From Deltaproteobacteria bacterium RIFCSPLOWO2_12_FULL_60_16 (lineage in GTDB: Bacteria > Desulfobacterota > Binatia > UBA9968), in the NCBI GenBank assembly GCA_001798565.1, contig MGSR01000168.1, positions 704 through 14,144 on the forward strand: a stretch of DNA of 13,441 nucleotides, written 5' to 3'. Below, one piece after another: positions 11,079 through 13,322 of the stretch. The position numbers and the translations under genes are program-made. Within the stretch, counting starts at the first letter, position 1, and the number at the start of each line of letters is the position of its first letter. Below the pieces are notes generated by a model. The model did not search any database and was not told the DNA's origin. It saw nothing but the letters and a program-made list of their open reading frames with translations.

Positions 11079-12014
11079 ATGGAGAGTAGTTCTTTTTTTC
11101 AGCGCTTAAAAACTGGCCTGGCAAAAACCCGTCAAGGCTGGGTGCAAAGATTGGAGCAGGTTTTTCAGGGCCGGCCCTGGGACGAGGAGGCGCTCGCCTC
11201 CGTGGAAGAGATCCTGCTGTCGGCCGACGTGGGAGTCAAAGGGACCGAGAGGCTGATCGAGGCGGTCAGGCGGCAGGCTCCCAAGGGAAGCGATGAGGCC
11301 GCCAGGAGTCTCTCCGCCTGTTTGCAGCAGGAGATTGTAAGCCTGCTCACGGCATCCGCCAAAACGAGCGCGCCGGCCGCGCTCCCGGCATCCCCCTGGG
11401 TGGTCATCTTCCTCGGCGTCAACGGGGTCGGGAAAACCACGACCATCGGCAAACTGGCCGCGCAGTACCGGCAATCAGGCAAAAAGGTCCTGCTCGCCGC
11501 CGCGGATACCTTCCGCGCCGCCGCCATAGAGCAATTGGAGGTGTGGGGGCAGAGGGCCGGAGCCGAGGTGGTAAAGCATAAACCGGGGGCGGACCCATCC
11601 GCGGTCGTCTTCGACGCTCTCCATGCGGCCAAGAAACGTCAAGCGGACGTCGTATTGATCGACACCGCAGGAAGACTCCATACCAAAGTCCATTTGGTCG
11701 AGGAGCTGAAGAAAATCCGCCGCGTCACCGCCAAGGAACAGGAAGGGGCGCCACACGAGACCCTTTTGGTTCTCGACGCCACTACCGGCCAGAACGCCCT
11801 GCAGCAGGCGCGGGTCTTCAAGGAGGCGATGGACATCACCGGAATCGCGCTGACCAAGCTCGACGGGACCGCCAAGGGCGGCGTGATCATCGGCATCCAG
11901 GAGGAGCTGGGCGTGCCGGTTCAGTACATCGGCGTCGGCGAAGAAATCGACGACCTCCAGCCCTTCGATCCCGCGGACTTCGTCAAGGCGCTGTTTGAGG
12001 CAGATCGTTGGTGA
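11079..12014 (+). CDS. ftsY: Signal recognition particle receptor FtsY
   Basis: SRP receptor GTPase that docks Ffh-bound ribosomes at the membrane for co-translational insertion. It begins directly at the N domain (SSFFQRLKTGLAKTRQGW) with no long acidic A domain. The G domain has P-loop GVNGVGKTTTIGKLA (about residue 113), DTFRAAA (about 142), DTAGRL (about 195), TKLDGTAKGG (about 258) and the closing GVGEEIDDLQPFDP. The ATG at 11079 is preferred over one at 11061: TAAGGG ends 8 nt before it, whereas the upstream ATG directly abuts the repeat and has no ribosome site. The protein would be 311 aa. The extreme C-terminus is altered: it ends ALFEADRW, whereas the two other copies of this gene end downstream read ALFEDR and ALFEER. 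The original stop therefore seems to have been displaced by an insertion. An antitoxin gene starts 3 nt after the stop. Confidence 0.96.
   Translation: MESSSFFQRLKTGLAKTRQGWVQRLEQVFQGRPWDEEALASVEEILLSADVGVKGTERLIEAVRRQAPKGSDEAARSLSACLQQEIVSLLTASAKTSAPAALPASPWVVIFLGVNGVGKTTTIGKLAAQYRQSGKKVLLAAADTFRAAAIEQLEVWGQRAGAEVVKHKPGADPSAVVFDALHAAKKRQADVVLIDTAGRLHTKVHLVEELKKIRRVTAKEQEGAPHETLLVLDATTGQNALQQARVFKEAMDITGIALTKLDGTAKGGVIIGIQEELGVPVQYIGVGEEIDDLQPFDPADFVKALFEADRW
11931..12000 (+). repeat. Copy 1 of the ftsY 3'-end repeat (inside ftsY)
   Basis: This stretch, starting exactly at the GGC codon of GVGEEIDD, matches 13161-13230 at 64 of 70 positions; most differences are silent. Its last part, AAGGCGCTGTT (11985-11995), is repeated exactly at 12438-12448, bracketing the toxin-antitoxin remnant. 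Confidence 0.9.
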
Positions 12015-12017
12015 GTT

Positions 12018-12266
12018 ATGGCAAGATCCAAAGTTGCAATTTTTTTTGATGAATCCACCCTGGACCGTCTCGATCAATTGGTCAAGAAACAGGTCTTTCC
12101 CAACCGCAGCAAGGCTATCGAGGAGGCTGTCGTGGAGAAACTCGCGCGGATCGAGAAGAACCGCCTTGCCCGAGAGTGCGCCAAACTCGATCCTGCGTTT
12201 GAAAAGGCTTTTGCCGAAACGGGCGGGCTTTCCTTTAACGCTCGAACTTCATGCGAGGGGGCTTAA
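12018..12266 (+). CDS. Ribbon-helix-helix antitoxin, C-terminus replaced
   Basis: An 82-aa protein whose first about 45 residues (ARSKVAIFFDESTLDRLDQL, then NRSKAIEEAVVEKL) form a beta strand and two helices of the MetJ/Arc/CopG ribbon-helix-helix fold, as in antitoxins paired with MazF-type toxins. DNA binding and autorepression are the expected roles. After about residue 68 the frame enters DNA that, read one frame over, encodes the C-terminus of a MazF-like toxin. The toxin-neutralising tail is therefore probably lost, and the last 14 residues (GLSFNARTSCEGA) are an out-of-frame by-product. The ATG is 3 nt after the ftsY stop with only GGTGA just before it, suggesting translational coupling to ftsY. 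No separate promoter was found; the native promoter may have been lost on insertion. Confidence 0.75.
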   Translation: MARSKVAIFFDESTLDRLDQLVKKQVFPNRSKAIEEAVVEKLARIEKNRLARECAKLDPAFEKAFAETGGLSFNARTSCEGA

Positions 12267-12399
12267 AAAAAAGTCATGGGTCAAAATCAGCCAGATCCGA
12301 ACGCTAGCGGTCGAAAGGATAGGGAAGGTGATCGGTCGGGCGTCTCCAGAGGAATTGGCTCAGGTTATTGAAGGATTGAACGAGATTATCGGAACCTAA
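12226..12399 (+). pseudogene. C-terminal remnant of a MazF/PemK-like toxin
   Basis: In the frame ending at 12399 the DNA encodes GFPLTLEL, then GLKKKSWVKISQIRTLAVER and IGKVIGRASPEELAQVIEGL, ending NEIIGT. The pattern of a beta strand, a Gln-Ile-Arg-Thr-like segment, then a Gly-Arg turn and a final amphipathic helix fits the C-terminal third of PemK/MazF mRNA interferases. The N-terminal half with the catalytic Arg and substrate loop is absent, and there is no own start codon. The junction with the antitoxin frame lies at about 12215-12228. The simplest reading is a deletion that removed the antitoxin tail and the toxin N-terminus and put the toxin remnant out of frame. The family call rests on recall of sequence style and is less sure than the fact of truncation. 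Confidence 0.6.
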
Positions 12400-12437
12400 C
12401 CATTCTGTTCGCGGATCTTCGGCGCAGGCTGAGCTAT

Positions 12438-12545
12438 AAGGCGCTGTTCGAAGATAGATAACTCCCCTCCGCTCTAATTGCGCAGAAATAGGCTGCTGGA
12501 TTGACAGAGTTTGCTGGCGAAACGGTTTTTGACAGGGTTTTCGTA
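12438..12545 (+). repeat. Copy 2 of the ftsY 3'-end repeat plus downstream flank
   Basis: It starts AAGGCGCTGTTCGAAGATAG and would encode KALFEDR followed by TAA, the last codons of ftsY, although no ftsY body precedes it. It aligns without gaps to 13215-13322 at 88 of 108 positions, continuing about 85 bp past the stop codon through TTGACAG(G/A)G and TTTTCGTA. It holds no gene but supplies the -35 box of the DUF4160 promoter. The 38 bp between the toxin remnant and this copy (12400-12437) show nothing recognisable. Confidence 0.85.
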
Positions 12546-12559
12546 TAGGCGATATACGA
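12529..12559 (+). promoter_or_regulatory. Promoter and palindromic operator of the DUF4160-DUF2442 module
   Basis: A perfect -35 TTGACA (12529-12534) is followed after 18 bp by TATACG (12553-12558). The -10 lies in the right arm of a perfect 7-bp inverted repeat, TCGTATA (12541-12547), GGCGA, TATACGA (12553-12559). A dimeric repressor bound there would block the -10, as in autoregulated toxin-antitoxin operons. In copy 3 of the repeat the -35 is kept (13306-13311) but the palindrome and -10 are absent. Confidence 0.6.
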
Positions 12560-12580
12560 CGCATGTGGTAGGATATTACC

Positions 12581-12823
12581 GTGCCAACGGTGTTAAGGAG
12601 TGGTCCGTACCGCATGTATTTCTTCAGCCACGAACCGAACGAGCCACCTCACGTCCACGTGGACCGAGATGATCTGTCAGCGAAGTTCTGGCTTCAGCCG
12701 TTAGCACTGGCGCGGAATTTCGGTTTTGCACCGAGGGAACTGGGCAGAATCAGAGCCCTGATCGAAGAGAACCGAGAAAAACTGTTGGAGGCATGGCATG
12801 GGCATATTGGCACTAAGCGCTGA
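12581..12823 (+). CDS. DUF4160 domain protein
   Basis: An 80-aa protein with the hallmarks of DUF4160: PTVLRSGPYRMYFFSHEPNE near the start, the PPHVHVDRDD segment with its two His, AKFWLQPLALARNFGF, and a C-terminal helix ending in LLEAWHGH. The family is commonly encoded just upstream of a DUF2442 gene, and the pair behaves genomically like a small toxin-antitoxin or accessory cassette; which partner would be active is not established here. It starts at GTG 12581, with AGGA at 12570-12573 seven nt upstream; no ATG gives the conserved N-terminus. It overlaps the DUF2442 gene by 26 bp, so the two are certainly co-transcribed. Confidence 0.85.
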   Translation: MPTVLRSGPYRMYFFSHEPNEPPHVHVDRDDLSAKFWLQPLALARNFGFAPRELGRIRALIEENREKLLEAWHGHIGTKR

Positions 12824-13109
12824 CGAGCGGGTACGGGATGTGCGTGTCTCGGAAGACACGTTGACGGTCGATTTGATGGATGGTCGGACTATCTCCGTGC
12901 CCTTAGTTTGGTATCCGAGACTTTTGGGCGGAACAACGAAACAGCGGTCGAATTGGAAGGTGTGCGCTGCCGGTTACGGCATTCACTGGCCAGACCTCGA
13001 CGAGGATCTCAGCACGGAGGGTTTATTGCGCGGTGCACCGGCACCAGCGGGTTCGGCACGACGCCTAACAAACCGCTCCAGGCGACGGCGAAACATGCGC
13101 CGCCACTGA
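12798..13109 (+). CDS. DUF2442 domain protein with tail read through a repeat
   Basis: The first about 80 residues are a DUF2442 domain: VRDVRVSEDTLTVDLMDGRT, ISVPLVWYPRLL, the RSNWKVCAAGYGIHWPDLDE core and DLSTEGLLRG. GGAGG at 12787-12791, 6 nt before the ATG at 12798 and inside the DUF4160 gene, marks the start. The family is the usual partner of DUF4160 and resembles a small antitoxin-like fold, but its molecular role is not settled. After LLRGAPAPAG the frame runs into an attC-like hairpin and ends in a Arg-rich tail (NRSRRRRNMRRH) that is unlikely to belong to the domain. The native stop was probably lost, so the tail may be tolerated read-through. Confidence 0.85.
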   Translation: MGILALSADERVRDVRVSEDTLTVDLMDGRTISVPLVWYPRLLGGTTKQRSNWKVCAAGYGIHWPDLDEDLSTEGLLRGAPAPAGSARRLTNRSRRRRNMRRH

Positions 13110-13112
13110 GCG
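13063..13112 (+). repeat. attC-like hairpin remnant at the 3' end of the DUF2442 gene
   Basis: GCCTAAC (13063-13069) fits the inverse-core RYYYAAC that opens integron cassette attC sites. It is followed by a foldable region: CGCT (13074-13077) pairs with AGCG (13109-13112), CAG (13079-13081) with CTG (13106-13108), and CGGCG (13086-13090) with CGCCG (13098-13102) around a 7-nt loop, with a bulged C at 13078. The matching right-end GTTRRRY is missing (the sequence after the stem reads CAAAAAGGC), so the site is degenerate or only attC-like. The start lies exactly where the DUF2442 domain ends, as attC does behind cassette genes. Confidence 0.45.
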
Positions 13113-13160
13113 CAAAAAGGCGGCAGAAGTGGTCACCTTGAGCTGACCTGTTTATTTATA

Positions 13161-13322
13161 GGCGTCGGCGAAGAGATCGACGACCTCCAGCCCTTCGATC
13201 CCACCGACTTCGTCAAGGCACTGTTCGAAGAAAGATAACTCCCCTTCCCTTCAACTGCACAGAAATAGGCTCCCAGATTGCCCGCGTATGCTGGCAAAAT
13301 GATTCTTGACAGAGTTTTCGTA
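13161..13322 (+). repeat. Copy 3 of the ftsY 3' end, probably the displaced original end
   Basis: 13161-13238 encodes the last 25 codons and stop of an FtsY (GVGEEIDDLQPFDP, then TDFVKALFEER), with no start or upstream ftsY body. It begins at a codon boundary of ftsY: joining 11930 to 13161 recreates an intact C-terminus. Downstream, 13239-13322 repeats the flank found at 12462-12545, including TTGACA at 13306-13311. The junction 13160/13161 follows the AT-rich TTTATTTATA. It is best read as an attachment-site-like duplication or the original chromosomal end of ftsY pushed away by inserted modules. Confidence 0.85.

Follow-up and report, generated by a model that had tools for sequence, protein, structure and literature searches.

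The 3' end of ftsY as a candidate accretion site for integron-type toxin-antitoxin cassettes in an uncultured, probably Binatia lineage

We analyzed a stretch of 13,441 nt (the window) from an uncultured lineage, probably Candidatus Binatia, in which the 3' end of the gene ftsY occurs three times (copies 1, 2, and 3). The three ends flank two inserted modules, both of them gene cassettes of the integron type when judged by homology: module 1 is a decayed RHH/MazF pair, and module 2 an intact, DhiTA-like DUF4160/DUF2442 pair. In public metagenomes, near-identical FtsY bodies carry differing last ~23 residues, and the relatives compared have a single ftsY end. We give slightly better than even chances to the reading that the ftsY 3' end is an accretion site in this lineage, where single crossovers would have stacked units, each made up of an ftsY end with the intergenic region that follows it and then a toxin-antitoxin gene cassette.

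At the DNA level, two repeats link the three ends, with a similarity far beyond chance. Copies 1 and 3 are 92% identical over 71 nt (repeat D2, 11928-11998 vs. 13158-13228; local blastn E 3e-23). For the pair 2/3, identity is 81% over 108 nt (repeat D1, 12438-12545 vs. 13215-13322; E 3e-24). This is in line with an earlier note on this DNA, which described three ftsY ends around two modules and counted 64 of 70 bp shared between copies 1 and 3 and 88 of 108 bp between copies 2 and 3. That note also had the second repeat running from the last codons to 85 bp past the stop; the repeat does span both, but its homologous part past the TAA is 84 nt. Besides, "three copies" holds for the pairs 1/3 and 2/3, but copies 1 and 2 have only 14 nt in common (AAGGCGCTGTTYGA, one mismatch). 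The readings at the ends agree with the note: the present ftsY ends in ALFEADRW, whereas copy 3 reads GVGEEIDDLQPFDPTDFVKALFEER-stop and copy 2 KALFEDR-stop, both normal FtsY termini that restore the frame.

The copies have diverged in the manner of working genes. Between copies 1 and 3, 7/72 aligned nt differ, and six of the seven differences fall at third codon positions (p = 0.007), which indicates that both diverged as functional ftsY ends. Their third-position divergence (6/24) is similar to the intergenic divergence of copies 2 and 3 (18 mismatches in the 84 nt homologous stretch 3' of the TAA). Thus, the pattern is that of two orthologous working gene ends; a functionless drifting copy would lose codons. 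The earlier note had likewise taken the divergence of the copies to argue against a recent simple duplication.

At the protein level, we compared the best 120 of 1782 matches of an FtsY search. Three tail types were found: T1 (ADRW) in the window, P0001, P0007, and P0008; T2 (EVEDLQPFDPVAFVKALFENAR) in P0002-P0004; and T3 (EVDDLQPFDPTDFVKALFEENH or ENR) in P0005, P0006, and P0009. The window and P0002 differ in 1/288 body residues and 7/23 tail residues (Fisher 3.6e-8), with alignment columns 228, 290, 291, 299, 300, 308, 309, and 311 as the only differing ones. P0004 and P0005 differ in 3/288 body and 6/22 tail residues (Fisher 4.6e-6), and the window and P0003 gave a Fisher value of 2.9e-6. 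P0007 differs from the window in 20/288 body residues and has an identical tail, ADRW included, a pair that alone is not significant (p 0.38). Tail differences start at residue 290 or 291, just past GVGE (285-288), and copy 3 starts at residue 284. Counting without P0008, which is a shorter protein, 6/92 close FtsY pairs presented at least five tail differences, all of them in the window's lineage and mutually non-independent. For the control gene rng (120 listed homologues plus the window), at least five differences in the last 23 residues were found in 0/47 close pairs, the maximum being three.

Copy 3 has FDPTDFVKALFEE in common with the live T3 tails of P0005, P0006, and P0009, and EEIDD in common with T1. 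In sharing FDPTDFVKALFEE, this displaced end looks like an ftsY end still in use in related strains. As to whether other cargo uses the same border in relatives, the observation is the differing tails of P0002-P0006, known at the protein level. A second FtsY clade (P0026-P0037) also presented some variation, its listed close pairs differing in 0-3/22 tail and 0-8/288 body residues; it may reflect the same tail exchange process or simple mutation.

Regarding the cargo, neither the cassette nature of the modules nor their attC remnants were part of the earlier account. We searched 148 genomes of the class with the module DNA. Module 2 matched G010:C180 (87%) and G006:C53 (85%), both alignments beginning exactly at 12546, with partial matches in G003, G015, G122, and G123, and in G011 a short stretch matched. 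Toward the right, the matches in G010, G015, G006, and G123 end at 13094-13113. Its two open reading frames (ORFs) are intact, and the DUF4160 gene directly precedes and overlaps the DUF2442 gene, as in DhiTA. The toxin_DhiT score of the first protein (26.5 bits) is below the NCBIfam cut-off of 100, and the second had no NCBIfam match.

For the toxin part of module 1, matches occur in 11 other genomes among the 25 of the family, and the module 1 homologues in eight relatives that we aligned are 72.6-90.1% identical. In the window, this cassette is incomplete: its upstream part (promoter, GTTAGGT start) is missing, and so is the 5' half of the PemK/MazF toxin gene, which the relatives keep. The PemK_toxin match, made with the piece 12289-12399, scores just below the Pfam cut-off. 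Cassette-leader homology begins at 12010 (TGG codon and stop) or 12018 in the eight relatives. The last codon and the stop of the window ftsY fall within the stretch homologous to the RHH cassette leader (from 12010), and its A-D-R codons precede 12010, outside that homology.

Some DNA homologues of the modules in the family adjoin attC sites or lie between them. The module 2 homologue in G010 (L216) has GCGTTAGGC before it (GTTAGGC core) and a complete attC behind it (GCCTAAC ... GTTGGGC, fold z -3.8). An RHH-MazF homologue in G014 stands within a row of attC sites (L219: 4276-4381, 4873-4937, and 5217-5299 by scan, and a further site near 5925, behind the homologue, recognized by eye). Another in G004 lies between two sites (L218: 2159-2223 and 2848-2895, by scan), which fold no better than shuffles (z 0.1 and -0.8). 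In the window, a strict scan found no attC, and complete sites (R'', L'', L', R') are missing, with R'' kept and R' lost in both modules. The module 1 remnant abuts copy 2 and has no recognizable R' core and no hairpin (194/200 shuffles fold equally well, z 1.65). For module 2, the lost R' is GTTGGGC in the G010 homologue; the arms pair, but the fold is no better than shuffles (z -0.65). Thus, folding support is mixed. The scan combined a strict pattern with folding and no covariance model; it yields several chance hits and misses degenerate sites, and in most of 20 loci it gave no convincing attC by the strict pattern. Judged by their homologues, the module cassettes belong to the family's pool of integron cassettes, with decayed sites.

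The sequence to the right of copy 3 extends for only 119 nt, up to the contig end. It holds a perfect GTTAGGC (an attC R' type core) at 13376-13382, ~60 bp from that end, where another cassette could begin; no attC-like fold was seen in the stretch 13340-13384 leading up to it (z 0.1).

Besides the cassettes, we looked for a carrier. Blastn of 11928-13441 against phages gave one record, MT836042.1 (L247), labeled "Bacteriophage sp." in GenBank. It is a bacterial contig and resembles a chromosome fragment, with an ftsY end and ppx-like and ftsE/ftsX-like ORFs, named by reading translations. Against plasmids there were six records, none of them a carrier: two match the DUF2442 stretch, and four are Sinorhizobium replicons with ~80 nt, taken to be the replicons' own ftsY end. 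FtsY in viral contigs gave seven pattern matches, none of them a relative, and the four module proteins had no PADLOC match.

In the relatives, ftsY ends once. No second ftsY end was found in any of the 20 family loci in the DNA compared (0/20; the G003 contig stops 4 nt past ftsY), so the relatives do not all have three copies, and the empty site that the earlier note asked for exists. A forward second FtsY tail was likewise absent from L004-L032 and L143-L162. A wider check of 129 ftsY loci (L004-L112 and L143-L162, some genomes twice, five loci with <300 bp downstream) gave matches in 33, of which 32 were in named genomes (L036-L112). These 32 lie 1.2-4.2 kb downstream, matching either at 36-80% protein identity across 15-25 residues or in short nucleotide stretches; judged from their position, they look like homologous Ffh ends. 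The one in L160 is a 31-nt reverse-strand chance match, so that no FtsY tail of the window's kind was among the 33. Away from ftsY, the copy 3 repeat had no second copy in the 25 family genomes, only short low-scoring matches, and it is thus not widespread. Two of these (G008:C255 and G021:C5) sit at weakly FtsY-matching places, presumably Ffh genes.

The region behind ftsY is disturbed in the genus. Of the 21 family genomes with 500 bp or more of sequence downstream of ftsY, 14 have hesB within 900 bp behind it; the other seven are G002 (same genus), G020, G016, G008, G010, G006, and G012. The window has no hesB there either, and in G003 another gene stands ahead of it. On a second contig of the window's genome (G000:C177; L242, 6-10014), the hesB 3' end is at the contig start and is followed by ~10 kb before rsmD, whereas rsmD is <2 kb from hesB in relatives. 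This is a second disturbed junction of the same ancestral gene row. In G015, from another genus of the family, an apparent second ftsY piece is not a duplication: two contigs have exactly 141 nt in common, an assembly branch in the ftsY tail. That branching (ends of G015:C378 and G015:C404; L138, L115) suggests strain variation at the ftsY end. The earlier note had spoken of a hotspot. The tail variation and the lost ftsY-hesB synteny agree with that, but no other relative with cargo bounded by an ftsY end was found.

Under the accretion reading, the simplest one that takes in all the observations, each unit would have entered by a single crossover in the ftsY tail, around the GVGEE codons, and come to lie ahead of the resident end. 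Each addition would supply FtsY with a new C-terminus and push the previous end downstream as a remnant, which would account for copies 2 and 3. The additions would be successive; copy 2 and the T1-ADRW fusion may have been trimmed later by deletions, and the crossover enzyme, perhaps a site-specific recombinase, would have acted in trans. This comes close to the insertions with a replacement end that the earlier note proposed. The remnants in the window, the incongruence of bodies and tails, FDPTDFVKALFEE in T3 tails, and the single ends in relatives speak for that part; its site-specific integrase with an attP found no counterpart at the locus, and one att core would not account for junctions at two different codons unless deletions followed.

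Several points weigh against accretion. Only one occupied locus was seen at the DNA level, and the two apparent junctions do not fall at the same codons, one being at GVGEE and the other at KALFE. The locus holds no recombinase: as the earlier note had stated, no integrase-like ORF was seen between the copies, the four module ORFs being RHH, a PemK remnant, DUF4160, and DUF2442, and no linked integrase was seen up to the contig end. In G000, a genome 78.6% complete, no IntI passed the cut-off, and only two below-cut-off tyrosine recombinases, presumably of Xer type, were found. The FtsY tail is a naturally variable part of the protein, and 2/92 close FtsY pairs also have a 23-residue body window with at least five differences. 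The rng control includes only one close homologue of the window itself among the matches listed. Moreover, the tail variants are known from metagenomes at the protein level, and the linkage of body and tail could be chimeric in single cases. Finally, when the protein database was searched for short ORFs that might be orphan ftsY tails, three matches turned up, all resembling truncated FtsY.

A stronger version of this reading seems doubtful to us: the ftsY 3' end would itself be the recombination site of a cassette array, and units would integrate serially at the GVGEE codons, each switching the C-terminus of an essential protein. This would be an accretion system that draws on the integron cassette pool and has a living gene end for its attachment site.

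Among the alternatives, homologous recombination between strains is the best placed, and we regard it as possible but clearly less probable than accretion. In different strains, cassettes would have come to lie between ftsY and hesB; an exchange with a single crossover within the conserved part of ftsY that encodes the body would have carried the tails along, and single-crossover or unequal events would have left extra tails. The last 100 body residues, with only 0-3 differences among the window and P0001-P0008, favor homologous crossovers, and the variable presence of hesB behind ftsY fits as well. However, copy 3 and the window ftsY have only 71 nt in common, with a longest exact run of 27 nt, which is short for homologous integration. 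Besides, the tail changes start at adjacent codons (290, 291) in three pairs: window/P0002, window/P0003, and P0004/P0005.

Somewhat less favored, and unlikely in our view, is the integron integrase IntI as the agent at non-attC, attG-like genomic sites in ftsY and the intergenic region. Module 2 would then have been inserted at TTTTCG/TA, and ftsY ends would have been carried between cassette cores. Module 2 does start exactly at a cassette core (TAGGCG) at the copy 2 border, three junctions are similar (TATAGGCG, TATAGGCG, and TATAAGGCG), and IntI, full or partial, is above the NCBIfam cut-off in 9 of the 25 family genomes. Cassette insertion at attG sites is a published activity, cited in passages of PMC12901181 and PMC12444791. 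On the other hand, the junction cores are not GTT, IntI is lacking above the cut-off in G000, and the duplicated target at the locus weighs against it. When IntI inserts a cassette at a genomic site, a 165-nt duplication of the target would not be expected.

We consider it improbable that the ftsY end was duplicated locally in tandem, with cassette insertion at the junctions and drift afterwards. The tail-module-tail order fits an insertion between tandem copies, but the mostly third-position differences of copies 1 and 3 and the 18/84 intergenic differences of copies 2 and 3 do not, and the differing tails on near-identical bodies in relatives would stay unexplained. Very improbable is a metagenome assembly artefact joining the tails of several strains: only 119 nt separate copy 3 from the contig end, and the ftsY contigs of G003 and G015 likewise break off in the ftsY tail or at its end. 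However, where module 2 meets copy 3 and module 1 meets copy 2, the joints coincide with repeat edges and have no long exact word across them, as a k-mer assembler would require, and P0001 and P0007 have the same ADRW end on other contigs.

Compared with known systems, the locus is reminiscent of elements that insert at a conserved gene and carry a duplicated gene-end segment restoring the reading frame, although the repeats here (92% and 81%) are not exact. According to PMC8571831, attB of Tn5253 is 83 or 84 nt in most pneumococci, and the Tn5253 duplication restores the coding sequence of rbgA; SGI1 inserts at the trmE 3' end, as PMC8409611 states. Unlike both, the target here is ftsY, the cargo is <1.3 kb with no integrase in sight, and several gene ends, diverged homologues in place of identical repeats, stand one behind the other. 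We do not class the locus as an element of this kind, because no integrase was seen as far as the contig goes. Our search of a literature library found no paper combining ftsY, integrase, and att site, and the four with ftsY, integration site, and genomic island looked off point by title.

The locus also resembles integron cassettes and clusters of attC sites without integrase (CALINs), as both modules are homologous to family cassettes that adjoin or lie between attC sites, and both have attC remnants. Unlike these, it has ftsY ends between the cassettes, both attC sites lack the R' core, and no IntI is over the cut-off in G000. Regarding function, the domain pairs RHH plus PemK/MazF and DUF4160 plus DUF2442 resemble the type II toxin-antitoxin systems MazEF/PemIK and DhiTA. 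The second pair corresponds to dhiTA, validated in Dickeya according to PMC8198452. Unlike in those systems, the MazF gene is broken here, and the DhiT score is below the NCBIfam cut-off.

The window covers positions 704-14144 of a contig of 14144 bp (G000:C168), and its right end is the contig end. Its genes (Table 1) were named by Pfam (HNH, ftsY), by homologue names (rng), or by reading translations (ubiD-like, metH-like, smc-like). Candidatus Binatia and Deltaproteobacteria metagenome-assembled genomes are the named sources of the FtsY and Rng homologues, and most close ftsY homologues start at the methionine at 11079. The window scan gave no tRNA and no Rfam family (0 each). We also observed related inverted repeat segments (I1-I3) at 572-719 and 10937-11047, ~10 kb apart, with arms of 34-44 nt that are 73-85% complementary; they resemble a dispersed repeat.

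Table 1. Features of the window, with positions counted from its first nucleotide
Feature	Position	Strand	Basis
Gene order: ubiD-like, metH-like, rng, HNH endonuclease gene, smc-like, ftsY			ORF list
ftsY, ends ALFEADRW	11061..12014	+	ORF; Pfam SRP54 E 3e-79; homologues
Copy 1, live ftsY 3' end, tail type T1, GVGEE codons to KALFE	11928..11999	+	Repeat search, alignment
Fusion of ftsY and module 1 leader, codons ADRW and TGA, directly 5' of the antitoxin ATG	12000..12017	+	Alignment with 8 relatives
Module 1 RHH (CopG-type) antitoxin ORF, C-terminus changed by deletion	12018..12266	+	Pfam RHH_1 E 1.5e-5
Module 1 PemK/MazF toxin gene, 3' remnant	12218..12399	+	Pfam PemK_toxin E 1.3e-4, 22.5 bits (cut-off 23.1)
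Module 1 attC remnant, R'' ACCTAAC at 12394-12400	12394..12437	+	Sequence; comparison with L170/L218 and L172/L219
Copy 2, last codons of an ftsY end (KALFEDR, TAA 12459-12461) and 84 nt intergenic with TTGACA box	12438..12545	+	Repeat search, alignment
Module 2 cassette body, integron type, starts TAGGCG at the exact end of copy 2	12546..13112	+	DNA alignment
DUF4160 protein, DhiT-like toxin	12581..12823	+	Pfam E 6.5e-21; NCBIfam toxin_DhiT E 7.3e-6
DUF2442 protein, putative antitoxin (DhiA-like)	12798..13109	+	Pfam E 1.1e-24
Module 2 attC, R'' GCCTAAC at 13063-13069, paired L''/L' arms kept	13063..13114	+	Alignment with L164/L216
43 nt between module 2 attC and copy 3, origin unassigned	13115..13157	+	Cassette matches stop earlier
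Copy 3, displaced ftsY end (GVGEEIDDLQPFDPTDFVKALFEER, TAA 13236-13238) and its own intergenic region, 165 nt	13158..13322	+	Repeat search, alignment
Sequence up to the contig end, origin unassigned; GTTAGGC at 13376-13382; without hesB	13323..13441	+	

Differing FtsY tails on near-identical bodies occur in natural populations. If the accretion reading is true, ftsY, an essential secretion gene, would be a further protein gene with a 3' end used for insertion, and integron cassettes would be shown to reside outside integrons, flanked by copies of the end of a host gene. Two points can be tested: which recombinase moves a cassette from the integron pool to an ftsY-type site, and whether FtsY tolerates tail swaps.

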